Positions 36,599 through 59,465 of a stretch of 64,000 bases of DNA are shown piece after piece. A program made the position numbers and the translations under genes. The DNA lies in NCBI GenBank assembly GCA_002104905.1, contig MCFE01000059.1, positions 1 to 64,000 on the forward strand, written 5' to 3'. The notes below the pieces were generated by a model, which was not told where the DNA came from, searched no databases, and saw only the letters and a program-made list of their open reading frames with translations. Source of the DNA: Basidiobolus meristosporus CBS 931.73 (lineage: Eukaryota > Basidiobolomycota > Basidiobolomycetes > Basidiobolales > Basidiobolaceae). Position 1 is the first letter of the stretch. Each line of letters starts with the position of its first letter.

Positions 36599-37923
36599 AT
36601 GTGCACCTTATCGTGCGTTAAGATTGTCTTTAACGCTTATTTGAAAGTCCAGGGAACTAGAATGGCTATTGGACACTCAGCTAGAGCCTACACTACAGCT
36701 AATCAAAGAACATCTTGAGGTAGGGTGGAGGTGATTCTATGCCCTTTGAAACGTGCTTGACAGAGATTTGCGTCCTATTTCAGAAAGCTCGTGAGGTTCG
36801 CGTGGCTGCTTCAGAAGGTGAGTTAAAATTAGCAAGTGCTGCATCAGGTCGGCAAAGAGCAACAGCGTATACTGATTGTCTATTGGAAATCAGTGGATAC
36901 ACCAGTAAATACTCTAGCGTTATCTTCTACGAAGTATACACATATCGTGCACGTATTTTCCTCAACATAGTGAACCTTTCAGCTTTGAATGATTAGTAGT
37001 GACGCGTTGAAGGGTTTTGTCAAAATCTCCGGATTCCAGCTCCGTAGGGCGGTAGGCTAGTGATTCGCCTTCTCGACGGCGGGTCCCTTCAGGTTTAACA
37101 TATTTACTCCAGGACCTACAAATCCGACTACCTGGCTTTAACAAAGGTCATCTGTTCCAGTGTTCACTTCAACCCACAAAGCCCTATACCTTAGAACAGG
37201 TGAGGTTCCGTGTAAGTTGAGCATAAAACCAATCCAGCTAATTACACTACATCAGATCCAAACTTCATATAATTATTTGGAGCTTGCTTGGGAGGAACTA
37301 GAGTTCGGAAGGTTTCCGAGGTACAAAGATGCCGTGAAGAATGTATTGTCTAAATTGGTGCTGCCACTTTTACATCCTTTGAAGCTAACTTGCTATGGAA
37401 TAGCATTTAGAAAGCATCCTTGACCTGATCAACAAAGGGATCGAATCGTTGAATAGATTGGACGAAGAGAAGCTCTTTCCGAACAGGGTCTGCGACCCGA
37501 AGGTATCATCGTTTGAGCATCGACATCTGGACATACTGACCAATACTGAGCCATGGCTACCCTTTATATTTCTGCTAGATGTTCCAACCCGAACTACCTT
37601 CCGACATTGTTGTTCAGTTCTATATCAAAGGAAGCGCTGTTGTAGCGAACGCCCTGATCATTCAACTCCACCAAAGCATGCCTTCAAGCACTGGCATCTT
37701 GCGAAAGAAAAACACCCACAAAATCAAGTAAGCTGACAAGCCGAGCCGGATAGTCACATCGTACTAACATCCTGCCAGTGAATTCAAAGGAATGTATGCT
37801 GAAATCACTGGTGAAATTACGGTCGAAACACACTGTCCCTCACTTGCCATTGCTCTGAATGGCCTGACACAAGCCGCCAACACATGCCATGAATTCCTTA
37901 CCAAGCTTTCAATGTTCGAGTAG
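36599..37923 (+). CDS. ROGDI: ROGDI / Rav2-family protein (V-ATPase regulator)
   Basis: Nine short exons assembled by splice signals: 36599-36612, 36653-36719, 36784-36866, 36997-37051, 37113-37199, 37256-37320, 37415-37502, 37579-37727, 37779-37923; 250 residues. Identification rests on ordered family blocks: ELEWLLDTQLEPTL at the start, ALKGFVKISGFQL, RLPGFNKG, YTLEQIQ, MFQPELPSDIVVQFYI, and ETHCPSLAIALNGLTQA near the end, matching ROGDI. A TACTAAC branch site lies in the last intron. In yeast the relative Rav2 is part of RAVE, which reassembles V1 with Vo of the vacuolar ATPase; in animals ROGDI joins the DMXL complexes. The first intron (40 bp) and the acceptors of exons 4 and 7 are least certain. 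Confidence 0.8.
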
Positions 37924-38216
37924 CTTCAAGGCATTCCTCAGGGGCTTACCATCCACTCATCCATTCGCTGGCTGTTTTGATTAAACTAAACTATTTATTT
38001 GATCGAAATAGTGTAGGTAGTTAAAGTTTGTTAATGAATTATACATAGGTTTAGTGGATTCAATAAAATAACCACTTTTGGACCCCAGCCAGAGTCCAAT
38101 ATGAATGATCACTGCGAATGTCTATGTCCTCGTCGTTGGGTTGAAGTAACTGGAGACTTGTAAGGCTGTGCAATCAATGATATAATGCAAATGAATGGTC
38201 ATGATGATGAACTGGA

Positions 38217-39612
38217 TTATATGGCTGCGGAGGAATCAATGGCTTGAGCTCTTTGCTTCTTGAGAATGTTGGTGATGTAGAATTCACCAGCTTTGTAAGA
38301 TGAGCGGACAAGAGGTCCACTAGCGACGTACTTGAATCCTAGCTCCTCACCAACCTTGGCCCAATGATCGAATTTCTCTGGGGTAACGTACTCGGTCACC
38401 TTCATGTGTCTCTTGGTGGGACGCATGTACTGGCCCAGAGTCAAACAATCAACATCAACGGCACGGAGGTCTAGTGAAATCAGTTAGGTCGATAAACAAC
38501 ACCTACAGGCAGCTCGGAAGTACTTACCTTTCATGGTTTGAAGAACCTCTTCGTCGGTTTCGCCAAGTCCTAACATGATCGAAGTCTTGGTGAAAAGAGT
38601 GGGGACGGTTTTCTTCGCATGCTCCAGCACAGCAAGTGACTGTCTATATTTGGCGCGACGATCACGAACGTAGGGAGTGAGTCCTTCGACAGTCTCCATG
38701 TTGTGCGCATAAACATCGAGTCCGGATTTGGCGACGATCGCAACATGATCCAAGTTTCCAAGAAAATCCCCGGTTAAACACTCCACAAGAATATGGGAGG
38801 CTTTCTCTTTGATCTTTTTGATGGTGCTGGCGAAATGCTCTGCTCCACTGTCTGGAAGATCGTCACGATCAACAGAGGTCAGCACAACGTAATCCAGACC
38901 CCATTTGCTGATGGCTTCCGCCGTGTTTTCTGGTTCGTTAATATCCAACGCTTTGGGCTTGCGATTTGTCTTGACGGAGCAGAAACGACATCCACGAGTG
39001 CACTCGTCACCCATTAACTATACAATGGATGTATGTGAGTCGTGTGTACGTTTTCGGGAGGCATTCCCAGTTGACTTACCATAATGGTAGCGGTAGCAGT
39101 TTGGTGCTCACCACCACCCCAACAGTCTCCGATATTAGGGCATCTGGCCTCTTCGCAAACAGTGTGCAGCTTGAGATCGCGCAAGTTCTTCTTGATGTTA
39201 GTGAAATTGCTTCCCACCGGGATCTCGGTCTTCAACCAGGGTGGCAGTCTTTGCTTTCTATAGGTATCGGGAAGGGTTACTAACAAGGTATGAGGGTTCA
39301 CTAGAGCGTGTGCCATACGGTTTTTTAACTCCAGTTGTCTTTACGGGCTCCTTCAGTTCAAAAGCTTCTTCGGCAGACATTTTGGAAGAGCTGTTGATGA
39401 AATCGCCAAGCGACGGACCATCACGAAGTTTCTCGGAGAAGTTGCTGAGTGCTGGCGCCTGCTTAGTGGTAGCAAGGGTGCGCACCTGACCCTAATCCCA
39501 TTCACAGAAAGGTTAATATTATAAGGGAGGGGCGCACGATTTTACGTGTATTGAGTACCCTGAGGGAACGGCCCAAGCCTGCAAAAGTTGCTTTGTTCAG
39601 AAGGCGAGACAT
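38217..39612 (-). CDS. LIP5: Lipoyl synthase, mitochondrial
   Basis: Five exons, 39559-39612, 39319-39491, 39080-39257, 38528-39017 and 38217-38470, encode 382 residues. An Arg/Leu/Ser-rich N-terminus ([18 protein letters not shown]) indicates mitochondrial import. The auxiliary cluster motif [12 protein letters not shown], the radical-SAM motif CTRGCRFC and the conserved terminal Ser motif VRSSYKAGE are all intact. The enzyme inserts two sulfurs into protein-bound octanoyl groups to make lipoate for pyruvate and 2-oxoglutarate dehydrogenases and the glycine cleavage system. The acceptor of exon 2 could instead lie six bases later, changing two residues. Confidence 0.95.
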
Positions 39613-40837
39613 GTGGGAAAGTATATCGATAGAAAGCAAGCTCCAAACGTAGCTTACTCTGGTGGATTGAATTCTTTAAAAATGAGAAAATCTAAGGTAG
39701 GGGTGCAATGATTTTGGGGTGTTAAGGTTGGTTATATTCATCTCATGGTGTAAGCGATATATGACACATAGGACCTATATGTCAATTTCTTAGTGAGGCT
39801 TCGGGTTGGGATTACCATAAGGAATCGCCAAAAGATAATCAACAATTGGTACATGGATCTATCCAATCGACTTGGCCATAGTGACCCTTTTGGACTCCAC
39901 CGCAGTGGCCTATACCAAGCCTTCAAAGAGCAAAGGAATTCAAAATCGTGATAATCTGAGCCTAAGATCCAACATCTCCTCCCCAATCACACTGATTATC
40001 TCCTCCTGATAGGATAATCAAGAAGTGGGTGAGATGAGCACCACTTTATGTAACTTCGTGAGAATTGATTGTTCTCGACATCGATCATTGATAACAGGTA
40101 CAGATCATGAATGCCGCCATGGCTTGAGATCTTTTTTGCAAAACTCTGCACATTGCAGCAGGGATCCAAAGTAGGCAACCCTGGTGACACAGGTCCGATT
40201 CATTCGATTATCAATGATCGTACAAGCGTTGCCTCAGAAATATAATCTTCACCGGACTGGTTTGGTCAGAATCCTGCACTGGCTACATTGGTGATTGGGT
40301 GCTTTGGATGCCTGTGAAGCCCCACTTGCTGAAACTATCTGGGGCCACCATCAATAACCTTGTGGATGGTTAGAGGGGCTTCGAATAGATGATTCGATCA
40401 TCTGATCTATAATTTCATGCTATTCAAGTACATCTGAGTTACCGAGGCGCCCTACGGAAAGGTGGAGCGTTGGATGGCTACCAGTGGTGTGAAAGCCCGA
40501 GATGCCATCCAGCGCTGGGATTCATTGACATGATCTTGCATGTGTTTATTTTTGTAGACTAGGGGAGGCTGAGTTGATATATATATATATATATAATATG
40601 GGGATGCTTTTGAGCGGCAAAACCTCAACACCCACCAGGATCCCGGTGGTGCGTGTTTCGCGGCATGAACGCAGTAGCTTCATGGTGATGGTATGAGAAG
40701 CAGTATTAGTATAGAGATGGAGTCCAAAATGTAACAGCGGTCGCAAAAATAAAAAAGGCAATGTACTAGGTGGCTTCCCGTGGTATTTCGCAAAACATTA
40801 TCCAAAATGGTGGTTGATGCTGTTGGAAAATGGAGAG
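39613..40837. other. Intergenic with hairpin and TA repeat
   Basis: About 1.2 kb upstream of lipoyl synthase and downstream of the bHLH gene. It contains an imperfect hairpin at 40466-40516 and a short TA microsatellite (about 40578-40597). No coding exon is supported. Confidence 0.4.
40466..40516. other. Imperfect 13-bp hairpin
   Basis: Arms 40466-40478 (AGCGTTGGATGGC) and 40504-40516 (GCCATCCAGCGCT) pair at 12 of 13 positions plus one G-U, around a 25-base loop. It sits in an unusually GC-rich part of otherwise AT-rich DNA. Possible structured RNA; no family recognised. Confidence 0.4.
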
Positions 40838-42525
40838 CTAGGCCCTCGACACGGTGGTTCGTCGCATGCTGGCGATGGTGACGTCGTCGGCTGAAATGAT
40901 AGAGGTGTCGGCTCGACAATAACCTATTCCACTGTTGGATAGCTCGGTTCCCATGGTATATTGGTTGCTGGAATCACCAGAGGCGCCACCACCAAAGTAG
41001 TTGCCATTTCCTACTTGAGAGCGCTGGCTGCCGTGGTATGCGAAGTTGTGCATATATCTTTGTCCCCCGGAGCCGGGGTTTGCTCCCCCACCTCCTCGTC
41101 CTGATGGCGGCGGATGGTGATGGCCGTTATGCAAAGAATACATTGTTGCCTTTTGGGATTCCTCTAAGCGTTTTTGCAAAACATTGGCTTTGTTCTTTAA
41201 CCGTTGATTCTTGCGCTCTAGTCGCTTAATGAAATCCACCGCTTTGAATAGTATGGTGGATTTGCTGTTGTTCATGTCTCGGAGCGAAGGAACAATTTCC
41301 GAAAGATCCCGAAACCCGGTGCGAATCATGTTGCGTCGCTTTTGTTCGGATGCGATGTGGTTTGCTCTCTTTTCCTCTTCCGTCAGTAACTCTTTGTTGC
41401 CTTTACGAAGCCGGTCCGGCCTGCATGTATCCTTCCTGTCCTCGAGAGAGCTTGACACAGGGGATTGGGAGGTTTGGGTGGATTCTAGCTTGATTTCCTT
41501 ATTAGTACTAGATAGCGATTCCTGGTCCAACTCCTTGGAGGGACTTTTTTCTGCTTTAATTGGTCTAGTCTTGGAGATGGATCCCTGTGACTTGCTGTTA
41601 CTCATTTTCCGTTTGGCTGGTATCAAGGATCCACTGATGCTTGGCGTGGTCGCTGAAATACAAGGTGAGGTTGAGGTGAATTTCCTTGCTGAGCTATCGG
41701 ATGATTCAACCATGGTTGGGATATTAGTCGAGGATGTTGGGTGAGACGGATTGTTATCAGCTGAGGATGCACCACCAGAATCATGGCTCATAAGCAGACT
41801 AGATGGCGTTGTCGGCGCACTGTGTATACTGGCCCCCTTCGTGTGGTAGCTAAACATATCGTATAGCGAGGAGTGAGCCATAGATTTATGCTGTGGCTTT
41901 TCCATCGATAGCATATGGGAATTACTGCTAGCAGGTAGTGAGGGGCCAGGAGCGAAGTAGGCGGCATTCTCGAGAGTTGGTGGTAGAGGACTGTCAGCGA
42001 AAAGGTTCTCGTCAAAAAATATATTATCCAAAAAGTTGTCGAAGAAACGCTGCTCCGATTCATCAAAGAGTTTGGTGTTAGGGTTGGTTGCAGATCTCAG
42101 AGAAGGTGAGGAAGGCAGTGTAGCCAAATCCTCATCAGTCAAGCCCAGTTGGTGACCAAGTTCTGTGCAAAAATTAGGTTTGTCGTACATTCAGATCGAT
42201 AAATGAGTAAAGGAAACCTACCTCTAAGCTCTTTAGCCAAATGAACTGAGATAGAAGGTTCAGGAGCAGCAGGTAGTGGGTATGAAGGTATGTGAGGTGG
42301 CGGATTGGAAGGTGGGACAGTTACACTTCGATTCGTAGCTTCAAAGGCAGTTGTAGAGGACATATGAGAAGGCGAGGGGTAGTTGTAGTAAGAGGGCTGA
42401 TATAAATTCAAGTTTATATGTTGAGAATCATGTTTGCTATCATTAACGGAGGCTTTGGAGAGGTCGGAAGTGGCAGAACAGTAAACAGAATCACCCAACA
42501 GTGCGTTGGGTATTTGCTCGTTCAT
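40838..42525 (-). CDS. bHLH-leucine zipper transcription factor
   Basis: Two exons, 42222-42525 and 40838-42162, encode 542 residues. The bHLH lies at about residues 358-430: basic region HIASEQKRR with the H-E-R pattern that contacts CACGTG E-boxes, helix 1 IRTGFRDLSEIVPSL, loop, and helix 2 SKSTILFKAVDFIKRLERK, running into a short zipper NQRLKNKANVLQKRL. The N-terminal half is Ser/Pro/Asn-rich with an acidic patch, and the C-terminal tail has Gly/Ser-rich stretches. It resembles Mlx/Max-class bHLHZip proteins; the precise orthologue is unclear. The start is the ATG at 42525; the frame remains open for 29 codons upstream to an acceptor-like TTTGCAG, so an extra 5' exon is possible. Confidence 0.85.
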
Positions 42526-43784
42526 TGAGTAATCCTTATCTTGAAGATACAAAATTACTGGAAATTCAGCAAATGGCTGAAAGAAGTTGAGCTTCAACCA
42601 GGAGAACTGCAAAGGGAATCTGCTATATGAGCGACTAGAGAATAAAGAAGACGATTGTATGTATTAGGGAAAAACGTGTGGTTGAGCAGTATCCTGTGAA
42701 CCACGAGTCTGGCTATCTACAGGTAAATAGCACGATGGTAAATAGTACTGATAGGATATAATGAAGTAAATAACCAGAGATATAAAGACGGGGGCTTACA
42801 GCTTCCTTCAAGTATACTCCGCACTATTGGTGCAACATCATCTTTTTGGGATACTATTGTTTGCCAACATATGGGAGAGTGGGTTTTGAAATACAGGAGC
42901 AATAGAAATATTCAGTGACCACTGATCCAGGATTTTCACGTGCATTTGAATAGGCAATTATCAAACTGAGGACAATACACCTGTATTGTTATGTGATGAA
43001 CACTACACTATACAGGATCATGATATATTCAGAATGTCGAGGGTAAATCTCTAGGAGTGAGGGGCGTCCATTTAAACAGTTCAAAGTGGCAGTGTTCAAC
43101 CAGCAATACCGTTAGGTTAGGAAGTAGGCTCGCGGTTGATAGTAGCAAGATTGTCGACTAATGGATTTAACGATACTGAGCAGGTGCACATCGTAGCACC
43201 TTCTGTGAGTTACTTTGGGCTGTTTCCGAAATGGCAGGGGCTGAGTTTCTTGAGACTCTTCAGAATATGGCATAGTTTGCTTTGAGATCACTCAGCATAT
43301 TTAGAAAGCGGTTTAAATCGTGTTGGCTGATGGGGTTTGCTTATGAGGATTCCCGTTAATGATAAGAATGGTACATGCGACACTGGTAAGGCTATCATAT
43401 TTTTTCAGAATCCCTATTTATTTAGTAGGGTCTTGCATTGCAAAGCCAATTGTCTCAAACAATTATGCCATTTAGTGACATGAGGGATATCAACGATACG
43501 TGATATGTCTTGTATTAATCAGCAAATTCCGCAGATCGTAAATTATCGAGGGGTCGTTTCATATATCACAAGCTCGTGACATACGAAATTTTGGAGACCA
43601 TCGAAGTACTTTCAAAAGGTTCAAATAAAGTCACAAGCTCCTACGCTCAAGAATTTCCATATCGACTCGTTATCGTTTCCATTTTTATTGTTTCTCTTGC
43701 TATTAGCACCACCACTGACTCAGAACATACTCAATATACACGCACAATCCCTCAATTAGAAAGGGTCCTTGAGCATATATTCCA
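42526..43784. other. Divergent intergenic region
   Basis: Between the leftward bHLH gene and the rightward SLC17-like carrier. A minus-strand exon-like frame at about 42793-42902 ends in a GTAAGC donor but joins nothing in phase. Confidence 0.35.
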
Positions 43785-45526
43785 ATGGTTTCAATCATAG
43801 GTACCCTACGCTCTGTCCCTAGAAGACATATCATTGTCTTTCTGTGTGCACTGAGTGTTATAATCAGTTATGCAGGTTCAAGAAACATCCGATCATAACG
43901 TTTCGCTTTTCCATATAGTAACTTGTTTTTATCGCAGATCGCTCAAACATTTCAATTGCTATTATCCCGATGGCGGAAGAATACTCTTGGTCATCAACAA
44001 CTAGAGGCCTAGTTCTCTCGAGTTTTTTCTACGGATATTTTTGTACGCAGGTCCTTGGTGGGTTTTTGGCGGATAAATTCGGAGGAAAAAGCGTATTGGC
44101 TATGGGTAAATTACTGGAATACACTTTGGAAACAAGCCAAGCTTACTCACTTGACTGTAAAAGGCGCCTTCCTGTGGTCTCTTTTCACTCTTGTTACCCC
44201 GTGGGTAGCTCACAATTTTACACTCTTAATCCTTTGCCGCCTACTTCTCGGTGCTGGGGAAGGTCAGTAAACTTCTACTCCTCTAAGCAAAGCAGCCCAA
44301 TAAACCCGTATACATGAAGGGCTTGGCTTTCCTGCGATTCACTCTTTGATTGCCAAGTGGATTCCGCACCACGAGAGCTCTCGTGCAGTTGCCGCTGTCA
44401 CAGCTGCGTCATATGCCGGTGCAATCTTGGCTCTCCTGATATCCGCCCCAATTGCCGCCTCATTTTTGGGATGGAAATGGATATTTTATGTCTTTGCTCT
44501 GATGGGTTTTGGATGGAATATCCCTTGGTTCATGTACAGCGCAAGTTCACCTGACCAATGGTTGAATTCCTCATCGGACGGCGCCTACAACAAAGAAGTT
44601 GGACAGAACTGCACCAACTATATGCGCGTGAATAGTGACGACGAACGGGATGGCTTCCGCCAAAGATCACCAGCTATTGATGGCCTCGAGGATGGCCATA
44701 AGTCTCAATCTCCTGATGAGAGTGATCCAGCAGTGGTGAGCTCGATTGTTGTTCACCCATCTGCCAAGTATAGGGGATTCGTTTCCTCTGAGAATTCGAT
44801 TCCTTGGAATGAGATTTTCTCTTCGAAGGAAGTATGGGCCATATTGCTCAACCAATTCTGTAGCTCGTGGGGATTTTATGTGCTGCTAAGTTGGTTGCCT
44901 ACATACTATAAGGACGTGTTTGATGTGGACCTCAACGAGCTGGGCTATTTCTCTGGTGAGTGCTAATATGCTCATTAGCAACCAACTAAGCTAACAAACA
45001 CTCAGTGTTGCCATATATAGTTCAGGGTTTGGTAGGTCTGGCTAGTGGGTTCGTCGGTGATTACGCCATCAACGAACTCGAGATCCCAGTTATTACCGTT
45101 CGCCGAGTAGCTCAGTGTGTTGGAATGATAGGGCCGGGGGTGTTCCTATTGTTAGCTGGCTATACCGCCTCATCAGTCGCCGTTGGGATGATTTATATTT
45201 CACTGGCGCTGGGCTTTAACTCCTTAACTCTAATCGGGGTATCAATCTCACAGCTAGACATTGCTCCCAAGTTTGCAGGGATCATATTTGGACTCGGAAA
45301 CACTGCTGCCACACTTCCAGGTGAATACTCGACTGGCAATATATATGGTTTATCGGCTTGTGCTCACCCGTGACGTCTAGGAATTTTAGGGGTAACCGTG
45401 ACGGGAATCTTGCTGGAGTCCAAGGAGGCGTGGCCCCTGGTGTTTGGACTTGCGGCCGCCTTTTACTTCACTGGAGCTGTAATATGGTACTTCTGGGGAG
45501 GTGGGAATCGGGTTGTTATCCATTAG
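43785..45526 (+). CDS. SLC17/PHT4-like anion transporter (MFS)
   Basis: Six exons, 43785-43875, 43938-44105, 44164-44262, 44320-44955, 45006-45320 and 45381-45526, encode 484 residues. The family block SYADRSNISIAIIPMA is created by joining exons 1 and 2; further marks are SSFFYGYFCTQVLGG, ADKFGG, FYVLLSWLPTYY, SVLPYIVQG and FGLGNTAATLPGILG. About twelve membrane helices are expected. Related proteins carry phosphate, organic anions or sialic acid, often with sodium or protons. A hydrophilic insert of about 75 residues between helices 6 and 7 (many Ser, Asp, Glu) is longer than usual. The donor of intron 1 (GTTCAA) is non-consensus, so the first junction is less certain. Confidence 0.86.
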
Positions 45527-45797
45527 AGCACGTTTAGGTCATTGTGTTATTTGTGATATTATTTATATAAATATAAACCGCGCTTAATGGTAAATGTTGG
45601 TAAATGTCATTTAATCTTTGACCCACTCAATAAATCCAAGCTGCGAGCCCATCCATTATTCAACTCGGTATGCTATCCAACGCAATCACGCCCTGTGACC
45701 TATCATCACAGCTAGTCATGAGAGATGATTTAATGTGGCGCAGCTTCATATTGAAGTATTTAAGGCGGCCAACGATCGGCCATTTCAGACCATTGAT

Positions 45798-46622
45798 ATG
45801 TGCACCAAAAGTGTACAAGTTGAGGCAGAGTTCTCAAAGGAAACAGACATTCATTTGGAGAGTAGCCATGTAAGTTTCAAAGCTCTATCACGATCTACAG
45901 AAAGTATTGACTCAACTCCAGGTAATACATATTCAGAAGGGTGTTCGCAAGCCGGGTAAACGATCGAAATCGACTCGGAGCAACTCGAAAAGTGCCACAC
46001 AACAGAAAGCCTTGAAGGGAAAGTGTGTTCCAGAAATCAATCACCTGGAGCTGAAGGAAAGTATGATTGCAGACCTAGGCCTACCGGTGGAGCCCTTTCA
46101 CACGTTAGAAAAATGGGGGTTCTCTCCCTATCGCTTCATCCAAGAGGTTCTGGCTAGTGACACCTGGAAGATGCTGATATCTACCATATTTCTGAACCGG
46201 ACTCGAGGCATTACCGCAGTCCCGATTCTAGCTCAATTCTTTAAACTATTCTCGAGACCCGAAGATGTTGCTGAAGGTGAGGACTTTCTGTATTTTTTAG
46301 ACTCACCAATACGCTTTCTAATCATAGCTCAGTCCATGAAAAGACCATCGCCAGTTTGATGCAGCCTCTTGGGCTACATCGCACACGTGCAAAACGAATC
46401 GTCCGATTCTCTCAGGAATTCCTCGAAAATCGAACATGGCTTAAGCCCTCTGAGCTCTATGGAATTGGGAAATATGGAGACGATTCATATGTTCTCTTTT
46501 GTACAAATGATGATGCGTGGATGCATTTGACCCCTGATGACGTGCAGTTAAAAAAATACTTGGGCTGGAGGTGGAGTTTAGTAAGAGCTGTTCCTGAAGG
46601 TGCAGGGGCTGTTCAAACATAG
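45798..46622 (+). CDS. MBD4: MBD4-type HhH-GPD DNA glycosylase
   Basis: Three exons, 45798-45869, 45922-46276 and 46333-46622, encode 238 residues. The catalytic domain is clear: SPYRFIQEVL, DTWKMLISTIFLNRTRG, MQPLGLHRTRAKRIVRFS, the helix-hairpin-helix ELYGIGKYGDDSY and the LTPDDVQLKKY segment holding the catalytic Asp. These are specific to MBD4, which removes T or U from G mispairs at deaminated CpG. The N-terminus is short and Lys/Ser-rich, with no methyl-CpG-binding domain. The start is the first ATG in frame after a stop; the second exon begins right after CTCCAG. Presence of this enzyme suggests 5-methylcytosine repair, though that is inference. Confidence 0.87.
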
Positions 46623-47271
46623 ATATCATGCAGCACTTCGATCAATCGTACTATCTTGGTCTTCCGATTGTTCTGGTATTGCTGAATAATGCCCGTCTCG
46701 TCTCGTCTGTTCGGGATCGGGGCTCAGATAGATTAATGAAGTAAATTCTACTTACAATGCAAGGATACCTAATTGAATATGGTCGGCTTCTAGTTTACGG
46801 CTGCTATAGGGCTATGAACAATGTGGACAGATCAACATCTATCCATCACCGTGCATTGAGGGCTGTAAGTGAGTGGGGGTACGCCTTGAATGGCAATGCA
46901 TCAGCCCCCAACTTGGGTCCTTCAAGGCTTATGCACAGGACAGAGAAGATTGTTGCAGAGCTCCATATATACATTGATCCCACCCATGGTTGGCGTGAGA
47001 AGTACTGGCCACTATGGGGTTCAATCGCGATTTCCGGTATTCTGCTAAAATGCATTTGGCATGAATTTTAGGATATTAATTTCGACATTAGCTAGGTAAC
47101 CTAATTCAAGGGTGCCATAATCTTCACATCAGGGATAGAAGAAATCTGATAGGCTCTATCACCATTATCTTTTTCTTCACCTCACTAGTGCAACGTACAG
47201 GTTGACACTCATCTTGTCAGTTGCTTTCCAATCAACACCCCCTTTTGCGTCCCTCTATTTTAGAATATCCA
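46623..47271. other. Intergenic
   Basis: Between two rightward genes. A frame at 46757-47071 lacks any motif. The last 100 bp probably hold the promoter of the Tho1-like gene. Confidence 0.4.
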
Positions 47272-48418
47272 ATGTCTACTATCGAAGAAGAATTCGCCAA
47301 TCTTGCCCCACCAGAAAACTTTGACTGGGACGAATCCGCCTTGGGGAACGAGTAAGCCGATCGTTTCGACTCCCGACTGTTGCTGGAAATACAATACACT
47401 TCAAGATTCTAATTGTTAACAATATGTACCCCATCTAGCGTCGATCTTCCACCCGAATTGCGCCCTCTTTCACCAACCCACGAGTCGGAAAACCCCGGGC
47501 TTTCAACGACTCAAGAGGATGATAAAGCTATTGTTGACAAACAAGAGATTGATCCACCCTCAGAACAGATTGATTCAAAGGAGGTGGAAACCGCTGATGA
47601 TCGTAGCGCTGAGACCTCCTCAGTAACAAAAAACCCAGAGGATGACGAGGAGAAGAGAAAACAAAGAGCTCTCAGATTTGGTATCCCGCTATCTGACAAG
47701 GAAAAAGCAGCACAAAGAGCCAAACGATTTGGTATCCCGATGTCACAGCCAGCCCAAGAGTCGAAAAAAAAAGCGAAAGCAAGCGACAAAAGTACAAAAC
47801 CAAAGACGGAGCAACCTGCTGAGAAGGCAGATGAAATCGAACGCGCCCTCAAACGCGCTGAGAGATTTGGCATTCCTCTATCGGATGAGCAAAAGGCTGC
47901 CAAACGTGCACTAAGATTTGGACTTCCTGTTGCTGAGGAAGCCGCAAAAAAAGCCCCCGCCGCCAACAAACAAAAGGCCAAGCAGAACAATTCAAAGAAC
48001 AAAACATCTGCTGACGGTAAATGTCATTTGAGACACGCTAGAGACCAGTTAACTAAACTTCCGTCGTAGATAAAAAAACGAAAAAGACCGCCAACAAACC
48101 CACCCCCAACACCAAGCCTCCGCAACAGAAAAATGTACAGACAACAAAACCAAAACAGAAAAATGCCAAAAAGCCCCAGAATTCTCCACAAAAGCCAAAG
48201 CCCACCTCGGTTCGTAATCATTTGGATTCTTCGGAGGCCCGAACAGCTTTCTGACCCTCCTTTCTTTCCTACAGGCCATAAATGAAGCAACATTGAAAAA
48301 ACGGCAAGCACGCTTTGGCACGGTGGACACAAGCGAAGGCCAAATTCCCCAGATGAAGAAGAAACGCACCGGGCGTTTCAATGGAAACAACAAGAACAAG
48401 AAGGCCAAGTCCGCCTAA
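47272..48418 (+). CDS. Tho1/SARNP-like mRNA export protein with repeated RFG motifs
   Basis: Four exons, 47272-47351, 47439-48016, 48070-48209 and 48275-48418, encode 313 residues. The body carries five copies of an R-A-x-R-F-G-I/L motif (ALRFGIPLS, AKRFGIPMS, AERFGIPLS, ALRFGLPVA, and a divergent QARFGTVDT). This unit is the RNA-binding Tho1/MOS11/SARNP C-terminal motif that works with the DEAD-box helicase Sub2/UAP56. The rest is acidic at the N-terminus (EEFANLAPPENFDWDE) and very Lys/Gln/Pro-rich at the C-terminus, ending in a basic nuclear-localisation-like stretch. The SAP domain found in yeast Tho1 and human SARNP is absent. Phases agree at every junction. Confidence 0.8.
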
Positions 48419-48763
48419 GTTATCTACCAGTATTTGAACTAATTGAATTGAATAAATTACTCCATTTCGTATGTATATTATTCTCCCTTTTTCATCACTT
48501 GGTATCCGGTAAACTTCAATAAAGTCTCAGTGTCTGCATTCAGTTCAAATGCATTTTGATAGCCTAATATCGACTCACCAAATGCTGGCATGAGAGATGC
48601 ACCTGATATGCGCTTAGAAGGATCAGCGATATGGCCATTTATTGGGATGTACAAAACCGTTCCATAGCGGATTATGCTCAAGTATATACGAGTTGATTAT
48701 TATCTAAATGTCTGGAGGTGAAGAATGACCACATTGCCAACATAAGCAACAATAGGCCAATGG
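48419..48763. other. Convergent 3' intergenic region
   Basis: Short spacer between the 3' ends of the Tho1-like and MFSD1-like genes. A minus-strand frame at 48478-48681 is without motif. Confidence 0.4.
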
Positions 48764-50342
48764 CTATGGGGACACTTTCGGACCAGCCACACTGAATCCA
48801 AAGAACATTCCCCAAGCAACCAACATGGCGATGCCCAGTATAGCCGTATAGAGATAGTTCATCTTATTCACAACCGGCTCATGATCGGAGCTTTCCAACG
48901 CCTGCTGCTCAGACCGAATCTTTTCCTCGATCATAGGCTCGCGTTTTTTGAGGTTAACATCTAGAAGTCCCTTGTATTTTGTGAGGTCCACGAGGTATAG
49001 TACTACTGTAGCCACAATCGGGATAAAGGTAAGGATGAAAAGTAGCAGCATAACCGTGTCATAGCTTTGCATGTGGGTTTTGTCTTGAATAACACCAGTG
49101 GTAATGTCAAGAATGACTGATCCAATGTTGTTGGATGCCTTGTATATGCCCAGGGCGGTGCCAACCATGTTCACATCGACCAGCAATTGAATAGATGAGA
49201 TCATCGCCACTGGTCCCAAAGCCAGCGAAATACTGAAAAGAACCATAGGCCCGATGGGGTTGACGTGGGTGTATGCCAGAAGGCCAAAGCAAATGGAGAG
49301 GAAGACGCTGGAGGTCACCAAGATAAGCAGCCTGTGGCCGAACCGATCGAAGATAAGTCCCACGATCGGAACAACAATGATGGGGACCACTTGCGCAATA
49401 CTGGAATTATAAGCGGCCATCGCATCGCTCTTCCCATAGCGGAACTTCATAAATTGAGTGCTGATGATGAGAAAGGCGTTCCAAATAGCTGCCAGGAAAA
49501 ACTCAATGAAAATAACAAGCCAGTAGGAGTTGTTGAAATACAGAACTTTCTTCGGTTGGAACTGTTTCTTCTTGATTCTGTTCAATTGTTCCTCGGTTAT
49601 GAAAGTACGGTTGCAATGGCGCATCAGTAATACGTAAACGATATTGCAAATAACGGAGAGAACACACAGGATGGCTCCAAGCCAGAGAGGCCAACCGTAC
49701 GAGCCAGTGGCGGCGATAAGTGGGTGCGGGATCAGATTCCCCAGGAAGGATGCCAATCTAGCCCACGATAACTGTGTGGATAAGGCCAGAGCGGCTGCCC
49801 TACCTTCAAACCACTGAGTGATAATGGTTTCTTGAGCGGTGACGATGGTTCCGCTACCAATACCGAAACAGACGCGACCAATAACCATAAGTGGGAAGGA
49901 GGTGGCATTGGTCGCCCCTGCAATTAAAAGACTGCCCACTGCGATAATTGCTGTGCAGGTGATTGAGCCGATACCTGTGCCAGCATAATCAATCAAGATG
50001 CCACCGCAGATAGGTAGGAAGGTATTGACGAAGGCGACGGCGGAAGCGATAAGGCTGAACTGTCTATTATTAATGTCGAGGTTCTGGCGTTGGAGGCTAC
50101 CTGGTTAGTATCGTGGCCATAGATATGTTGAGGAGTATCAGCAAAATATCCCCTACCTTTGTGATGTTGTCTTTAGTCGCACTCAGGGCCGAGTTCGCAA
50201 AGTGACTACCTAAGGACATAGCCAGAGCACAAAACAAGGCTATGGCCTTATAACGCCAGGGGTATTTCGACTGCCGTCCGGCAAGAGTGGGGTGCTCATG
50301 CTTCTGCTGATCGACGCTGACGATGTCTTTTGCTGACTTCAT
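48764..50342 (-). CDS. MFSD1-like major facilitator transporter
   Basis: Two exons, 50157-50342 and 48764-50083, encode 501 residues. About twelve hydrophobic helices are visible. Family-like blocks include PWRYKAIALFCALAM near the first helix, NNRQFSLIASA, ICGGILIDYAG, GRVCFGIGSGT, and the ITQWFEGRAAALALSTQLS segment that corresponds to the WFKGK block of MFSD1. Animal MFSD1 is a lysosomal carrier for dipeptides. The N-terminus carries about 30 hydrophilic residues before helix 1. Substrate and vacuolar location here are inference. An acidic linker (EQQALESSDHEP) precedes the last helix. Confidence 0.82.
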
Positions 50343-51762
50343 ACTCCTCGCCAGTTCAGCAAACTAATGGTGCAGTAGAGGTTGTATGGTTGTGCCAGCG
50401 ACAGAGATCTGGCTTTATATATTCGATTCAACGCCTCCCAGGAACCTGACCAACCGCTTGATCTAGACGGTTTTACAGTGCGTTTTCCGAGCAATTTAGG
50501 CTCGAGTTACACCTGGTCGAAATTGCCTTTAAGGAGAAACAAGCGCGCACTTTTTTGCCTCGTAAGGAATGGCCGGATGCCTATTTGATCCTCCAGTTAA
50601 TAATGAAGTCGATGGTTCATATCATTCCCCATGATACTGAAACAAGAACACCTCGATCCCACAGTCTTGTAGCAGACACCAGGACCAAATAGATTAATTA
50701 CTTGGCGAGAACCAGAATGTGTGTAACCAAGCCGGACAATGAGCTACACTGTAAAAAATCTTCGCTGACCGAAGAAGCTACAATATCATCTGATATACGT
50801 TTCTGAGTAATCTTGCCTCGACGCGTTCCCCAATAGGTATTATACATCAGATATCTTCAATCCTACGTATACCAAACCAGGTCAAGTTGCAACATTGGCT
50901 CTGCACGTTTCGCCAAACCGGTTTATCCGAGGTTACCGCTTACAAGCCCCTCCTTTCAATCTGATAACCAAGGGTGACATTGAGTCGCTGTATCAGATCC
51001 ACGATACCCAGTAAAAATATCATCAGACAATATTCGTGCAACCGGTTGTAACAAATCCTCATCACAACTCCATTTTCAGTAGCAACCTGTATATCGCATC
51101 AGTAAAACAGTGGCTAACGGTGGCTTTATTATGGTTCTATGCATACTTCCCCTATATCTGTGGTAGGATGCCTTGCATCTTGTTTGTCGCTCGTCAAATT
51201 CGAATGGAGCGTACCAGGTAGTCCAGAGCTTGGCTCAACCCCAGCAACAGGGAAGACATCCTTATTGGACTGTCCAGTAGCATCTCAATATCGTGTGCAG
51301 GAATGCGAGCGAGGCTACTATCATATTGGCCATTGCTGAACTAACCATGCCAATCACTGACAAATGTAACCTGGGCTCTATCGTATCATCGCTTACACTG
51401 CCTCAAATAAACTATGGAAAGAACGCCAATTTATGGTAAGGGTCAGCCTAGCCGGGGGGGGGCAATCTCCCAACCAAGATCTTTAATCTGAGTCCAAACA
51501 ATAGGCAGAGGAAGACAAAAGGACATTCAAACTGAGTTTATTGATAGTTACAGTCAACGTGGTTTCTGGAGACGAATCACGTGTTACCAAGGTTCAAGAT
51601 CAATTTCCTCCACATGGGAAGCTACTCTGGACCGGCTGATTGGGATATTTCTGGTGTACATGTCAATCTCGTAAATAGTTTGGTAGGCATGGTAGGCTCG
51701 TGGCTACGTTCGCTGGCCGGGCGCGTTCGTAAACATATCACGGGTTTCGAAGGGGGGGGGCA
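50343..51762. other. Intergenic, no gene seen
   Basis: About 1.4 kb upstream of the MFSD1-like gene and downstream of KICS2. Contains two short poly-G runs (about 51454 and 51752) and no supported exon. Confidence 0.4.
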
Positions 51763-53455
51763 TCATTCCATCTTCGACATCATTTCGAAAATCTCGATGT
51801 TGCGGAGGTGTCTAGCAATGTATTTCATGAACTCGACGGTGCTATTTTCTGGATTCCCATGTCTATCCAGGAAGATGACCACCAAAGTAACTTGCACGTC
51901 TACTCGGATAAGGTAATACGTGCTGCCCACCTTTTTGTCGTAGAAATGAATACATTTCACCCGAGCGTCTGCCAGCGCCTCCTCGTTGACTTGCATGATG
52001 GAAATTAAGTTCGGCCAGTGTTCATAGGGCGGGCTCTGTCGCAACATCGGGTGAGTATGGGGGTCGTCACTTTCGGGTTGATGTCATGGTCCCTACCTCT
52101 GGGTAGCTGTAGATGCACGGAAAGGACATGAGACCGGTTGGGGCTTCATAATTTCTCACTGGGCATATGTAGCCCTTCTTGTTAAATGGCTTTTGAGAAT
52201 CAACTTCATATATAAGCGAGATACTGTGTGCACCTGACCGCCTCCTAAAATTCCTGATTCTGGATTCAAAAGGTCTCTAAGTAAGCACGGGATTATGGAG
52301 CATCAAGCAGGCGTTGACATACAGCGTGAAGTAGTCCGGCTCAATACGCCGCCATACATTCTTTAACTCCCCGCCAAGCAATCGCTCTCTTTCGAGCAAA
52401 GTGTCCTGGAAGTATAGAGTCAATTTCGACATCAGCTCGACGCTGAATTGGGAGACCCAGCCCATGTTGTTAGGTAGCTGGGGGGTATTCCGGAAGGAGC
52501 GCGAGTGTTTCTAAAATAAGACCATTGAGAAAACGGGTCGTTCAAGTGCCGTATGATTTGCCCTACATCCTGGGCTTCTAGTAAAGAGCATGCTCTCTTC
52601 CACTCACAAAGTTCATTTTTCGCGTTGTATAGGTTGACCGTAGATCCCTTAAAGCTGTATTCGCTTAAAGCGAGTTGCGCCTTGAATATATTGTAAAGGA
52701 TATTCAGCTCCTTCCTAAAGCGTAGGGGTTGCTTAGCCATCGAAGCACAGATGTACTGTGGTTACAAATATATATTACTTGAGGCCCAAGGCGAGTAGCC
52801 CGAGACTATCTTCCAAATGCATTCGTTTTAAGTTCGCCTGTACAATCTGCACATTTTCAAGTATAGCTTCATATTTAATTCCCATCGGATCTCCAGATAA
52901 GCTGCGATATCTTGGATCAAACACACCTGAGTTCCGGTTCATTTCTTCAAAAAGATGGAGTGACGTGAAGTCGGTGCTTACATGTTGATTTGTTCCTGTC
53001 GGACTGTCGCCAAATTGTTCAAGGCCTTACAGAGCTTGCTTAAGAAGGCCGACGAAGCTGATTCCAAAGGGGTAGGACTTCCACCAGAGAACAATACCTG
53101 TGCTTCTTTGATGGCGTCATCTCCGATGGCAGCATACAGGATGTTTAGGAACTGTCGAGAAAGGGATCAGTTTTCGATAGAATCTGGTGGATTGTATCAG
53201 AAAGAATACGTTTTCTCGTCGAAAAAACTTAGGTTTAAGGAAGGCAAGGCCGGTGTATAAAGCTTCACAAGTTGCTAGCCTATTCAATATGGTCCCAACA
53301 GTGGGAGATAGCTAGCACAAAAACGTGGTTAGCCTTCGTGTTGGAAAGAGGGTGGGTAGATTTCATACTTTGAGGAGTTTGGAGGATAAACGACTAGCAT
53401 TGTAGTAGTCGAAGCTACCTAGTGCGTTTAAATAATCCTTACAGGCAGTTTCCAT
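51763..53455 (-). CDS. KICS2: KICSTOR subunit 2 (KICS2 / C12orf66) homologue
   Basis: Eight exons, 53369-53455, 53210-53311, 52982-53151, 52779-52901, 52567-52714, 52323-52510, 52097-52253 and 51763-52035, encode 415 residues (human protein about 446). Conserved blocks occur in order: YLNALGSFDYYNAS at the start, LATCEALYTGLAFL, LNILYNIFKAQLALSEYSF with VNLYNAKNEL, LTLYFQDTLLER, EPDYFTL then SISLIYEVDS, and the strong C-terminal stretch HWPNLISIMQ..KCIHFYDKKVGSTYYLIR..VTLVVIFLD. In animals KICS2 joins KPTN, ITFG2 and SZT2 to place GATOR1 on lysosomes and restrain mTORC1 when nutrients are scarce. The acceptor of exon 4 is ambiguous (52901 or a few codons earlier). All phases agree and no stop interrupts the joined frame. 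Confidence 0.86.
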
Positions 53456-53762
53456 TGCATACTATTACGGTAAGACTACGAAGGGCTTTATTTACTTATC
53501 TAAGCGTGATGCTTTAACCCGAGGAAGCCAGAAACCGATTGCTGATTCATGTAACTAGATTGGCAAATCTGCCGAATTCTTACTAATGATAGTAATTTGA
53601 TGAGCCACAAATTTCATCTTTACCAAGTGATGAGGTTGGCGAACAGAATGCTGCCAAAAAGCAATATGCAAATAGAACCTTCTAAACCGCCATATTAGCC
53701 TACACTTGTATCTTCATACCATCCTTTATTACATAATAGAGGCTCTAGTGAAGGTACAACAA
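53456..53762. other. Intergenic
   Basis: Promoter region of KICS2 and 3' flank of the C2 protein gene. Nothing recognised. Confidence 0.4.
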
Positions 53763-54301
53763 TCACTTTTCCTGGTATGCTATTCTCAAACGGATCTCCC
53801 CTTTGATGCTATTATGCTCATCGAATAAGCCGTACCAATTGTCCACCTCTTTCTTTTCGAATATCTCCTCGAGCAAAATGTAAGCAGTGGCTATAAAAAA
53901 ACAGGTTTAACTAGGCCAGTAGAAAGAAGAGAGGCATCCTCTGGAGATTTACCTAGCCTATGGTGCTCAAGGAGTCTTCTACCTTTTCCGAGAGCCTCAA
54001 TAAATAGCGTTTTATGTTTATCGTCAACGTCTAAGGTGAAGGTTTCGTTCCATACTGGATGGGCTAGAGGCTGCGCCCGAGTTTGGTGTTGGGAACGATT
54101 CAAGGGAATCTTATGTAGATGGGAGTGAGTATATAGATGTATACTGACTTGGGCACTTGAGGTATTTAGGTTGTTATTTGTTGGAGTGGTCACGTCCGAA
54201 GCCGAGTCACACCCACGTGCGCCAGCAGCGACTTTGCCTCCAAACCAAGGGAGGATGTTGCGCGCTTCAAATACCTCTACTTGAATCTTCCCAGGAGTCA
54301 T
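53763..54301 (-). CDS. Small C2-domain protein
   Basis: Two exons, 53953-54301 and 53763-53890, encode 158 residues. The protein is little more than one C2 domain: KIQVEVFEARNILPW at the start, HPVWNETFTLDVDD in the middle, and after the intron GEIRLRIAYQEK as the last strand. A Thr/Asn/Ser/His-rich insert of about 50 residues (with HLYTHSHLHK) interrupts the early strands. Calcium-ligand aspartates are only partly present, so lipid binding without calcium is possible. The start is the first ATG (MTPGK); an upstream GTG-begun extension is rejected. Its partners are unknown. Confidence 0.75.
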
Positions 54302-54727
54302 AGCTGTGTTTCTAGAATGACTGTGGAGACGGAGTGATCCAGCCAAGCTTGATTCCACTTAAATTCGATGGAAGTTACATCATCCATCAGTGAAAGTGCT
54401 CTGCTAGTAGTGAGCTGGGATCCTTGAGCTCACATGAAGTTTTGAAAGGTCGAAGATCTAATTATTAACATTTATATAGAGTGCTTTCTATAAATAACCA
54501 ACCCAGAAAAATCGAAGGTATCTAGTTCTGATACACCAAAGTATTACAGGGTTATCTACACCTTCGATTAGCATACAGAGTAGTGTCGTAAATTATTGCA
54601 GGCTAGGGAAGGTTCAGGGCTCAAATCCATTCCAGCGATCTTATGATACAAGCTATTGAGAAAGGAATCCAGGAGAAATGGGTCGGCCGTGCCATCATAC
54701 TTCCAAGAAAGCCAAGGAGAGAAATTA
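54302..54727. other. Intergenic
   Basis: Short AT-rich spacer between two leftward genes, holding the promoter of the C2 gene. Nothing else recognised. Confidence 0.4.
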
Positions 54728-56380
54728 TTATTTTCTCTTGCTGGGGACAAATATGAGAGTAAAGAGCAAGGCGAGGAGGTTTGTCCCAATAAAGAGGGTA
54801 AACGTGTAAGTCTTCAGATTTTCAGTCAATACCGGTAAAAGCAGCCCCACCGCAAAGGTGCATCTAGATGTGTACGGATTAGTTAATCATTCCAGAGATA
54901 CTCTTTTGCGCTACTCACATCCAGCCCACATTATTGGCCATAGAGATAACCGCGCTGATTGCCTTTGTGGGCATCAATTCGGGAATAAGAATCACAGTAA
55001 CTGGACCTAATCCAATAGCGAATGCTGCCACAAACAAGAACGCTGGAAAGAGCGAAGAAAGTGAGCAAATCGAATAGTGTTTGGACGACTTAGAATGGCT
55101 TTCTTACCTGCAGTTATAACCAATGGATCAAGTGCAAGTGTCGATCCAACAACAAGAAGCGCCGACGCCACCAACATCCCAATTTCGCTGATGACCAAAA
55201 GTAGCTTACGTCCAGCCTTTTCAATGACCACTGCCGACACGAAGGTCAGGAGGAAATTGATTGATGCGATACCGAGTGTCACGTATGCAGCTTTGGCCGC
55301 CCCAAACACTTTTTCGAAGATCGAGGTGGAGTAATATACGATTCCAATCATCCCACTAAGTGGTTGGAGTGCAAACAAGGTGATCCCGACAAGCGCCATT
55401 TTACGGAGTTTTCTGTTTTTGAGGATCTCGAAAATATTCAGCGGAGCGGCAACCTTGGTTTCCCCTAGTTCCACCGGAGGCCTAGCTACATCGACAATGC
55501 TCAATCGCATTGAAGAGCCCACAGTGGCAATGGTGTTACCGTTGGAGCCCGATTCTTTCTGAGCTCTTATCATGTCATCATATTCAAGATCAACCTGGCA
55601 CCCTCTTCGAAGCTTGACCAAAGATTCTCTAGCTTCATCGTATTTCTCGCGCATTATTAGAAATCTTGGCGTTTCTTGACAGAATGGCAAGAGGATCATT
55701 TGCAAGATAGCAGGGGCCAATGTCCCACCCATCAACCAGCGCCAACCAGGCACAGTGGCAAATGGTATGCCCAATCCTTGTGATATCAAGATGCCACCCA
55801 TCTGGGAAAGCTCTAAAGTGATGCCTAAGGGACCTCTCCACCGATCAGTGGAGATTTCGGCCAGATAGGTAGCTACTGCCACTCCTGCAACACCACTCCC
55901 AACGCCGACCAAAAAACGACCGGCAATAAAGAGGGGTATATTGACAGAGAGTGCAATCATTAAGCCACCGGCAATGAACGCAAGATTATTCCAAAATAAT
56001 GTGGTCTTCCGCCCAAATTTGCTTGTTGCCGAGCCTGCAATTGTGCTTCCCGTCAGCCCGCCTAGAGCGAAGACGCCTACAGCAAAACCCCTTGAAAAGC
56101 GGTTAGACATTTACACAACAGCTAGCTCCCAAACGTGGAGAGCGACAAGATGAGAGTGTGCTTTGTATTACCATACTAGTGAGGACATCGGCAGACAGTC
56201 TGGAAAGTCGCCCATTTCATCTTCCACCGCGGGTGGACAGTGTAGGATGATGTTTTCGGTGGTATTCGAAGCGCCACCATTATAGCCTGCGTTGAATCCG
56301 GCCAACAATGCACTGAAAGCGCAAAACACAAAGTAGGCGCTCATCCCTTTCTCTCTTGAATCCGGTTGCTCGTTTTCCAT
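54728..56380 (-). CDS. Sugar (hexose) transporter, MFS
   Basis: Four exons, 56172-56380, 55108-56090, 54919-55042 and 54728-54863, encode 483 residues. Sugar_tr hallmarks: GFNAGYNGGASN in helix 1, the Trp and GxxG block VWGFAVGVFALGG created by joining exons 1-2, SKFGRKTT, RFLVGVGSGVAG, PGWRWLMGG, ETPRFLIMREK, QPLSGM, EKAGRKLLL, and GLGPVTVILIPELMP. About twelve helices. The family imports hexoses by facilitated diffusion or proton symport. The QPLSGM motif replaces the usual QQ(L/F)(S/T)G(I/M), so one substrate-contact Gln is a Leu-flanked variant. The ATG at 56110 seen in the continuous frame lies inside intron 1. Confidence 0.93.
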
Positions 56381-58877
56381 GTTGATTTTATTTCAGTTAA
56401 TGTTATAGGGTGGTTAAGTTCAGGTTAGAGTTTATGGGGTGGTTAAGGTTACACGGAAAACGCGCTGGTGAACCTTCAGATTTTCCCGAGAAGTCCGTGT
56501 CTGTGAAGTTCAGCCATCCGTCGCCTTAAATACTTGAGTGGCAGAAATCTGTAGTCACTGTGACCGTGTTTCTTTCAGTTTAGCTAGCAGTGGTATTTCC
56601 AACTTATTACGTAATGATCTGCAGTTGAAAAGCAACTACCTCATTTTCTACGAAGCCTAATTAAACAACCTTAAAATTCCCTGGCTTGTCGAGAAAGCAT
56701 CCCTTATTCCCTCTTCGTGAAATTATCCTGACATGTTGGGCCAGTTGAACGTGTGATCGATGCCAATTCTAGAATCAGTCTGAATCGAGTGGTGTTAGGC
56801 ATTGGTTCCTTGAATCGCCTCTAACTCTATTCGATTCGTTTCTATATAGTAAATCTCGAGTTTCATGTTCACTGTCTCCGGATTATTGGTACCCAACTGC
56901 ATCTGATAATTCTCCTTTACAAACGAGGATCGCTGGCTAACTCCTCACGTGGTCACCACAAGCCTATCACCTGGGTGAGGCAACCATCACTTGATCGAAT
57001 GATATTGGAGATTTGTTGCATGAGTTGACGCCATTCAATAGAGAGAGTGCCTGTCATCAGAACTGTGGCCAAATTGATTTGCCAAGCGCCATTGTTTTGA
57101 ATAGGTTAGCCAGGCACACCAGCGTGGGACTCAAACATATCGTGGCATGCTCGAATCAACTAAGCGATCCTACATGCAAGACAATGTGTCTGATTATTGA
57201 TTCGGTTGTGGTTGTAGTTGTAGTGCTAGTTGGCATAATATACAAAGTATGCATGGTTTATGATGTATATATACGAGGTTGGTATGGGAGTGTTTGATGC
57301 GATAAATCACTTGTATTGTACAGCTTAGGTCAGTCACCTGTATAAATGAGTCATGCATATCTTACTGGCAACCAGAATATATACACATCTCCAGAGCTCT
57401 GGCCAAGTGCAGAAGGCTCAAGTAGATGTTCAGTGTTGAGTGATATCTTTTACATACTGTCCAGGTTGGCTTTTACAGTGTGGAAGTGAGTGCCTTTGGG
57501 GTTTGAACTCTTGTAGTAATGACTGCAAATAAGTTATAATTTTACTATAAGGCTTGATATGCCTCAAGCATGAGTTTTGCAAAATCACCTTACTGATGGG
57601 CCTCTTGGCTTTATTGGTGTTTATGGTACTGCACAAACGTTCTTTGCAAGATTGAAATGCCGTCAGCTATCTCATTCCAAAACAACATTGTAAACAAGCG
57701 ATCCAAAATAGGTGATATATTGGCTGTCAAATACTCCCCCTAAAAAGCACCACGCATTCCCTCTGATATATAGAGCTTAGGGAGCGAGTACTCACGCTGC
57801 TGAAATTGGCTCTAGGTGCATGCTACAGGATACAGAAAACATCATGATCCTTGCAGCAGCACACTGCACCAAGAGGCTTTGTGAGCAGTGGTGATTGCCT
57901 TTGGAAGAATGCTGAAATGAGGATATAATGTAGTGATTGATGGTTGTTTAATAACCAGCTTAACGCTTGTGTAGTGCAATGCCATGGATCGACAGCAACA
58001 TACTGTCTCTGACGTGGGATCAAATATCATCGGTATCCCTAGACATGTATCAGATATGCTCAGCTCCAACACAAATTTGTATGGCATGTGGTCGCCTTTA
58101 CTCATGACTGAATCATGATAGAATAGCTCTGACGTAAGGCGATACCTGTTGACCGAATAGGATCAGATTCTGCGCCTATAAACGGAAGTGGTTCAACCTC
58201 AGCCTCCTGAGCACTTTGTCCAAATCATGATCAATTGTGGGGTGATTGCTCAAATTAGGCCATTGTTGCTTTCATTTATGATTGCTGTACATACCGTTGC
58301 CCATTTTTCGATGGCTTTTCTATGTCGATCAGAGTCAGGCCTTTCAGGATGCTCTGTTGAGCGAGGTAGTGTAGGGTATCAAGGAACGCAGACCACACGC
58401 TGGGCGGTTTGAATTGGGGCCATACCTAATCTGTGTCGATTACCTCCTGATTGTTAACTTCAAAAGGAACTGATACGCGTCCGCCAGAATGATGAATACC
58501 AATTCCGCCTAAGCCTGGCTCTTCTCAGGAGCACCGGTGAAGTCAGGGAACAGCCGATACTTAAGAGGCATAGATACAGAACAGTGAGACCCTGGCCCAT
58601 TGGTGATTTGCACGTTGTTGCTGGGCTGTTGCACTCTGCGATGTTGGGATATGATAGGTTTTAGGGGCATTGCGTACAGTTAAGGTATCCTGATGTATGT
58701 CTGCTTGCCAACTCATTTGACTTGCGTCTAAGCCTAGATGGCTTAGCATTTCATTTATATATCTTCCTTGCTTAGCGGACTACATCCATGGATCTTTTCA
58801 ACCATCCGCTGCCCTCTCCCTCATATTAAAGTAAGCCTGTATCCTAGTTACATCAGAAATCATCACTCGCTACAAAT
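56381..58877. other. Long intergenic region
   Basis: About 2.5 kb between divergent genes. No exon, transposon or RNA gene is supported. A GTTGTGGTT-type simple stretch lies near 57205-57230. Confidence 0.4.
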
Positions 58878-59465
58878 ATGACGGCTAAGCTTCAACGTGT
58901 GCTCTCCTTCAACGAAAGCACTCTCAAACAACCACATGTACATTCGATAGCCTATAAAAAATCATTGAATAGTCACACCGAAAATGCCATACTCAGACTG
59001 GAAAAAGATGGCGATAAATTGGTGGCCAAGCTGGATGGGAAAGTTAAATATGCCATCACCACCGAGAAAGGGTTTTTTAGCACCACGGTAACTTTGAAGA
59101 ACCTGGAGACAGAGGAGATTCTTTATGTCGCAAAACCCAGATCCACTCTGGGCTACATATGGATCACCTCTGAGCGCTTTCGATCGAAATTCCAATTCGC
59201 TTACCCCTCCAGCGAGTCGGGGATATTCGGGTTTCTCCTGGATGGGACCCTCTTCTTCTGGGATTTCCAAGAGAGCAAGTACCTTCGATGCTTCACCGCC
59301 TCGAAAAAAAAATTGGTGGCCCAGTTTACCTTGGGCTACAGCGACGGTGATGTGAAGGGTTGTCCCGTCGGGTGTCTAGTGCTAAGAAACGAGGTGACTG
59401 GCGTTGCCATCCAGCCATTTCTACTGCTCACAGCAGCATTGCTAGTTAATCGAGGATATTGCTAA
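58878..59465 (+). CDS. Small beta-rich protein, tubby/LURP-one-like fold suspected
   Basis: Single exon, 195 residues, no signal peptide or confident membrane helix except a hydrophobic C-terminus (about 177-190, FLLLTAALLV). The sequence is a series of short alternating strands (AILRLEKDGDKLVAKLDGKVKYAITTE, GYIWITSERFRSKFQFAY, GFLLDGTLFFWDF) like the tubby C-terminal/LURP-one/scramblase-type barrel. The hydrophobic end would form the central helix of such a barrel. I cannot name a family with certainty. Codon use and the clean ATG support a real gene. Confidence 0.6.
   Translation: MTAKLQRVLSFNESTLKQPHVHSIAYKKSLNSHTENAILRLEKDGDKLVAKLDGKVKYAITTEKGFFSTTVTLKNLETEEILYVAKPRSTLGYIWITSERFRSKFQFAYPSSESGIFGFLLDGTLFFWDFQESKYLRCFTASKKKLVAQFTLGYSDGDVKGCPVGCLVLRNEVTGVAIQPFLLLTAALLVNRGYC

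Follow-up and report, generated by a model that had tools for sequence, protein, structure and literature searches.

Structure and identity of the KICS2 gene

The window, that is, the whole stretch of 64,000 nucleotides of Basidiobolus meristosporus CBS 931.73 analysed here (contig MCFE01000059.1, positions 1 to 64,000), contains a gene for KICS2, a subunit of the KICSTOR complex. The gene lies on the minus strand, and we refer to it as copy A to distinguish it from a second KICS2 gene, copy B, elsewhere in the same genome. Its ATG is at 53455 and its TGA stop ends at 51763, so that the outer limits given by the original prediction (51763..53455) are exact at both ends. The rebuilt gene consists of eight exons separated by seven introns of 56-71 nt, all with GT donors, and the exons join without an in-frame stop into a frame that is intact over 420 codons. 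The in-phase chain of eight exons had been predicted correctly, but its product is 420 residues long, five more than the 415 expected. Two sources besides the resemblance to animal proteins support this exon chain. The first is copy B (contig C618), which has the same eight exon lengths, and the second is a Basidiobolus ranarum protein annotated by others (P0001), which also has 420 residues and is 91% identical to copy A over the full length.

Exon 1 (53369..53455, minus strand, as are all exons that follow) carries the start ATG and ends at the donor GTATGA, and exon 2 (53210..53311) lies between the acceptor CTAG and the donor GTATTC; their equivalents in copy B are also 87 and 102 nt long, respectively. 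Exon 3 (52982..53151) has the acceptor ACAG and the donor GTAAGC, and its 170 nt are common to both copies, as are the lengths of all later exons. Six of the seven acceptors of copy A are YAG, and the remaining one, at exon 4 (52779..52910, 132 nt), is a non-consensus AAG; the INIYRSL junction that it produces is also present in the B. ranarum protein. Exons 5 (52567..52714, 148 nt), 6 (52323..52510, 188 nt) and 7 (52097..52259, 163 nt) are followed by exon 8 with the stop codon (51763..52035, 273 nt), which contains all three of the sequence blocks noted earlier, HWPNLISIMQ, IHFYDKKVGSTYYLIR and VVIFLD. The models of copies A and B each have one AAG 3' splice site, and these are in different introns (window 52910 and L004:3205, respectively).

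The copy A protein matches the Pfam family PF09404 with an E value of 8.9e-59 and 199.7 bits (cut-off 22), over profile positions 50-434 of 439. At E <= 0.001, the PDB sequences that match are three in number and all of the KICS2 type, namely two human KICS2 constructs and the mouse entry 2gnx, which is titled "hypothetical protein" but whose aligned residues are nearly those of human KICS2; no chain of another family was found at this threshold. The open frame 51763-52083, which contains exon 8, matches human KICS2 (25gf_D) with an E value of 2.6e-12. In addition, the KICS2 fold of the solved KICSTOR is retained from end to end in a close orthologue of copy A. The profile, PDB and fold results thus agree with each other and with the tree described below in identifying the protein as KICS2, as had been predicted.

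As a specificity control, a hidden Markov model (HMM) was built from 12 other fungal relatives and human KICS2, with a threshold of E <= 0.1. Six of the 2135 open reading frames (ORFs) of the window match this HMM, and all six overlap exons of copy A (exons 3 and 4 have no separate match), while none of 2214 ORFs in the reversed window and none of 2283 in the shuffled window do. Because the HMM finds only the exons of copy A, and nothing in the reversed and shuffled windows, we exclude a chance match.

Copy B and the duplicated blocks

Copy B corresponds to the database protein P0002 (K493DRAFT_339926) and is located on contig C618 at L004:2933-4631. The two proteins are identical at 304 of 420 residues (72%), and the genes differ at 85 first, 57 second and 226 third codon positions. 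Nonsynonymous divergence (dN) is 0.16 with saturated synonymous divergence (dS) by the NG86 method, and YN00 gives a dN of 0.18 and a dS of 1.74. This pattern is the one expected for old copies under purifying selection, in a pairwise comparison that averages over both genes.

The relationship of the copies was placed in a KICS2 tree of 18 rows, which comprise 15 of the 30 proteins found by sequence, the modelled copies A and B, and human KICS2 as the sole animal sequence. Copy A, copy B and the B. ranarum protein group together with a support of 100/100, and within this group copy A and the B. ranarum protein are joined at 100/96. The tree thus places the split between A and B before the two Basidiobolus species diverged. 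None of the 30 matches is a second B. ranarum protein corresponding to copy B, which may reflect either gene loss or an incomplete assembly. Nine residues are invariant across all 18 aligned rows. A functional difference between A and B was sought in the conserved columns and was not found there: at the 37 columns that are strongly conserved in 13 other rows, A departs at four and B at two, and two of these are shared. The differences between A and B that could be polarised number 18 on A and 25 on B, with 73 unpolarised.

Copy A lies within a duplicated block. A tblastn comparison of window ORFs with C618:14000-64999 shows that window 31261..59462 corresponds to about 14508-50683 of C618, through seven loci (by our grouping of the matches) that include KICS2 and have the same order and orientation on both contigs. 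Protein identity across the seven collinear loci ranges from 39 to 99%, the last locus being weak (39%). Some window ORFs inside the block are without a match in the same part of C618 (e.g., 47413-48066, 48767-50104 and 55010-56110), and matches from the part of the window past 61 kb do not follow the shared order and may represent repeats. No matches were obtained in four unrelated region pairs that served as a control.

A second collinear block relates L044/L045 (C437:41000-59999) to L042/L043 (C1157:151000-169999). It contains the two Iml1/DEPDC5 loci of the genome, which are about 75% identical, and two more loci, one of which, judged by its sequence, encodes histone H3. The proteins of this histone pair are identical, and 39 of their 77 fourfold sites differ. 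Fourfold-site divergence is 0.51-0.72 in eight alignments, of which two belong to a single locus and five gave no YN00 estimate. In the measured pairs, silent sites are at or close to saturation, and the Iml1 block is similar to the KICS2 block in this respect. The two collinear blocks and these values hint at one old large-scale duplication, and they are compatible with either a whole-genome event or segmental ones. A Basidiobolus genome duplication is not mentioned in the accessible portions of PMC7466969, PMC10386755 and PMC8778642, and an available passage of PMC3281927 takes elongation-factor copy number to suggest that B. ranarum underwent duplication of genes or of the genome.

Phylogeny and origin of the fungal gene

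All of the 30 matching proteins contain PF09404, and most are from early-diverging fungi, with Glomeromycotina, Mortierellomycotina, Calcarisporiella, Massospora and Conidiobolus represented. In the tree, 15 fungal rows group together, apart from human KICS2 and two long-branch rows (88/98). The latter are P0028 and P0030, JGI proteins with PF09404, whose branches are very long (1.65 and 2.99, respectively). The topology fits vertical inheritance among fungi, although the deepest forks lack strong support. The earlier suggestion of an animal-like KICSTOR brake, with KICS2 older than the split between fungi and animals, is supported.

Two other sources of the gene were considered. The first is contamination of the assembly by animal DNA, in view of the fact that KICS2 was long described chiefly from animals (PMC11836306, main text, citing Wolfson et al. 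2017). We consider it effectively refuted, since an orthologue exists in another Basidiobolus species, 91% identical and grouped with copy A at 100/96, and we give it almost no weight. The genomic setting agrees: the introns of copy A are short, as described above, copy A is part of a block of which this genome has a second version on another contig, and, of the ten neighbouring open frames scanned, the nine with Pfam matches are ordinary-looking for a fungus, including bZIP, INO4-type bHLH and Tho1/MOS11 proteins and MFS or sugar transporters.

The second is that Basidiobolus, as a fungus of the vertebrate gut, acquired the gene horizontally from an animal. Basidiobolus inhabits the gut of amphibians, and it has been argued that its genome received genes by horizontal transfer, mostly from bacteria (PMC7466969 and PMC10386755, in the portions accessible). 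Such a transfer is nevertheless very improbable here, as proteins from several other fungal groups are among the 30 matches, the 15 fungal rows are grouped apart from the one animal sequence in the tree, and vertical inheritance in general is reported in the main text of Barua et al. (PMC11836306).

Partner genes, proposed function and comparison with known systems

The 89.0-Mb genome (1311 contigs) has matches to all three other KICSTOR genes, and the earlier statement that this lineage keeps at least part of the complex was therefore an understatement. Each partner was also checked in reverse, with a piece of the locus searched against the PDB sequences at E <= 0.001, and each piece matched its human counterpart and no other protein. 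The ITFG2 match lies on C335 (Pfam PF15907, E 1.4e-20), and one of its exons searched back gives only ITFG2 (4.3e-15). KPTN is on C682 (E 5.0e-8), and searched back it gives kaptin at 6.6e-10, with the next best at 0.69. SZT2 is on C479, where the human N-terminal piece as query matches at 3.6e-7; a 1213-residue open frame at this locus searched back gives only SZT2 (E 1.1e-11 to 1.2e-10), and additional same-strand open frames, which may belong to SZT2, extend down to about 30.6 kb. A Pfam scan of three open frames of the SZT2 locus gave no family over the cut-off.

The genes of GATOR1 are also present, with Iml1/DEPDC5 at the two loci on C437 and C1157, NPRL2 on C1113 and NPRL3 on C1 (by Pfam only), the single locus for NPRL2 and for NPRL3 being the result of one Pfam search each. 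When the fungus's own SZT2, ITFG2 and KPTN were used as queries, one locus was found for each, while a KICS2 query recovered copy A as well as copy B, so that an SZT2, ITFG2 or KPTN paralogue about as old as the KICS2 pair would probably have come to light.

We conclude with high confidence that copy A is a true Basidiobolus KICS2, which descends by vertical inheritance from the ancestor that fungi share with animals and has been kept as two anciently duplicated copies, and that it most likely acts as a KICSTOR subunit upon GATOR1. By homology with human KICSTOR, either KICS2 protein would bind SZT2, and KPTN-ITFG2 would join KICS2-SZT2. The complex would then hold GATOR1 (Iml1/DEPDC5, NPRL2 and NPRL3) at the vacuole or lysosome, where, when amino acids are short, GATOR1 would turn off RagA/Gtr1 and hence TORC1. 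Assembly, vacuolar location and TORC1 inhibition in Basidiobolus are thus carried over from human biology.

Several observations weigh against this conclusion. Copy A is identical to human KICS2 at only 101 of 367 positions (∼28%), and the forks that separate the fungi from human KICS2 and the two long-branch rows (93/86 and 88/98) are below the starred level. The copy A model needs its AAG acceptor at exon 4, and that of copy B needs one at exon 8. Furthermore, the NCBI model of copy B (P0002, 428 residues) keeps intron 7 and drops the start of exon 7; judged against the chain that is common to copy A and B. ranarum, this database model appears to be mis-spliced. An exon-level model is available for KICS2 only, the partner genes being known from partial matches, and the identity of SZT2 depends mainly on one 90-residue stretch (E 1e-11 to 1e-10) with a weak second one (E 0.014).

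The function of the fungal protein is a prediction, and this, together with the low human-fungal identity, leaves some room for a genuine KICS2 that has taken on another role and no longer tethers GATOR1. We consider this improbable, as the close orthologue keeps the fold over its whole length and the partner genes of both KICSTOR and GATOR1 are matched in the same genome.

Returning to a conserved KICSTOR-GATOR1 role, the presence of two loci each for KICS2 and Iml1, versus one each for SZT2, KPTN, ITFG2, NPRL2 and NPRL3, would permit alternative KICSTOR-GATOR1 assemblies. A more specific and quite speculative version is that an ancient genome-scale duplication occurred before the split of B. 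ranarum and B. meristosporus, and that the KICS2 and Iml1 pairs were kept and the other five genes stayed single, to give two kinds of KICSTOR-GATOR1, e.g., for gut versus free-living or spore stages. We think that this version is rather unlikely to be correct in full. The four matched KICSTOR genes, with the two KICS2 and two Iml1 loci, offer a natural test of which subunits can replace each other.

The reading of the gene as a fungal KICS2 was correct, and the idea of a fungal KICSTOR brake on TORC1 is supported, but neither is new, because KICSTOR was reported across non-Dikarya fungi by Barua, Plecha and Muszewska (Sci Rep, 18 February 2025; PMC11836306, main text), and one of the 30 database matches (P0010) already has the title "KICSTOR complex protein C12orf66 [Entomortierella parvispora]". 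What is added here is the second, anciently duplicated KICS2 and the presence of all three partner genes in Basidiobolus. Basidiobolomycota thereby provides a further phylum with a genomic case, and a well-supported one, for the recent view that KICSTOR did not arise in animals but is a TORC1 brake ancestral to opisthokonts, which the model yeasts of the Dikarya have lost. The main interest is in the full partner set and in the duplicated KICS2 and Iml1 blocks, and is modest overall.

Compared with known systems, the fungal protein belongs to the same Pfam family as human KICS2/C12orf66 (PDB 9o5a, 9v6e, 9van and 25gf) over almost its entire length; the human fold is common to the close orthologue, and matches to the human partners SZT2, KPTN and ITFG2 are likewise present in the Basidiobolus genome. 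It differs from human KICS2 in being shorter (420 versus 445 residues), in its low sequence identity and in being present in two copies. Copy B, in turn, shares its exon lengths with copy A but is on a separate contig and differs from it by near-saturated silent sites. The KICS2 proteins of other early-diverging fungi (e.g., P0010) are of the same orthologous family and have already been described and partly annotated. In the KICSTOR survey (PMC11836306), the main text has no word beginning with "basidiobol" and no mention of a KICS2 duplication; the duplicated components that it gives as examples are Rheb, SZT2, Castor2, Sestrin and Tco89, and KICS2 is not one of these examples.
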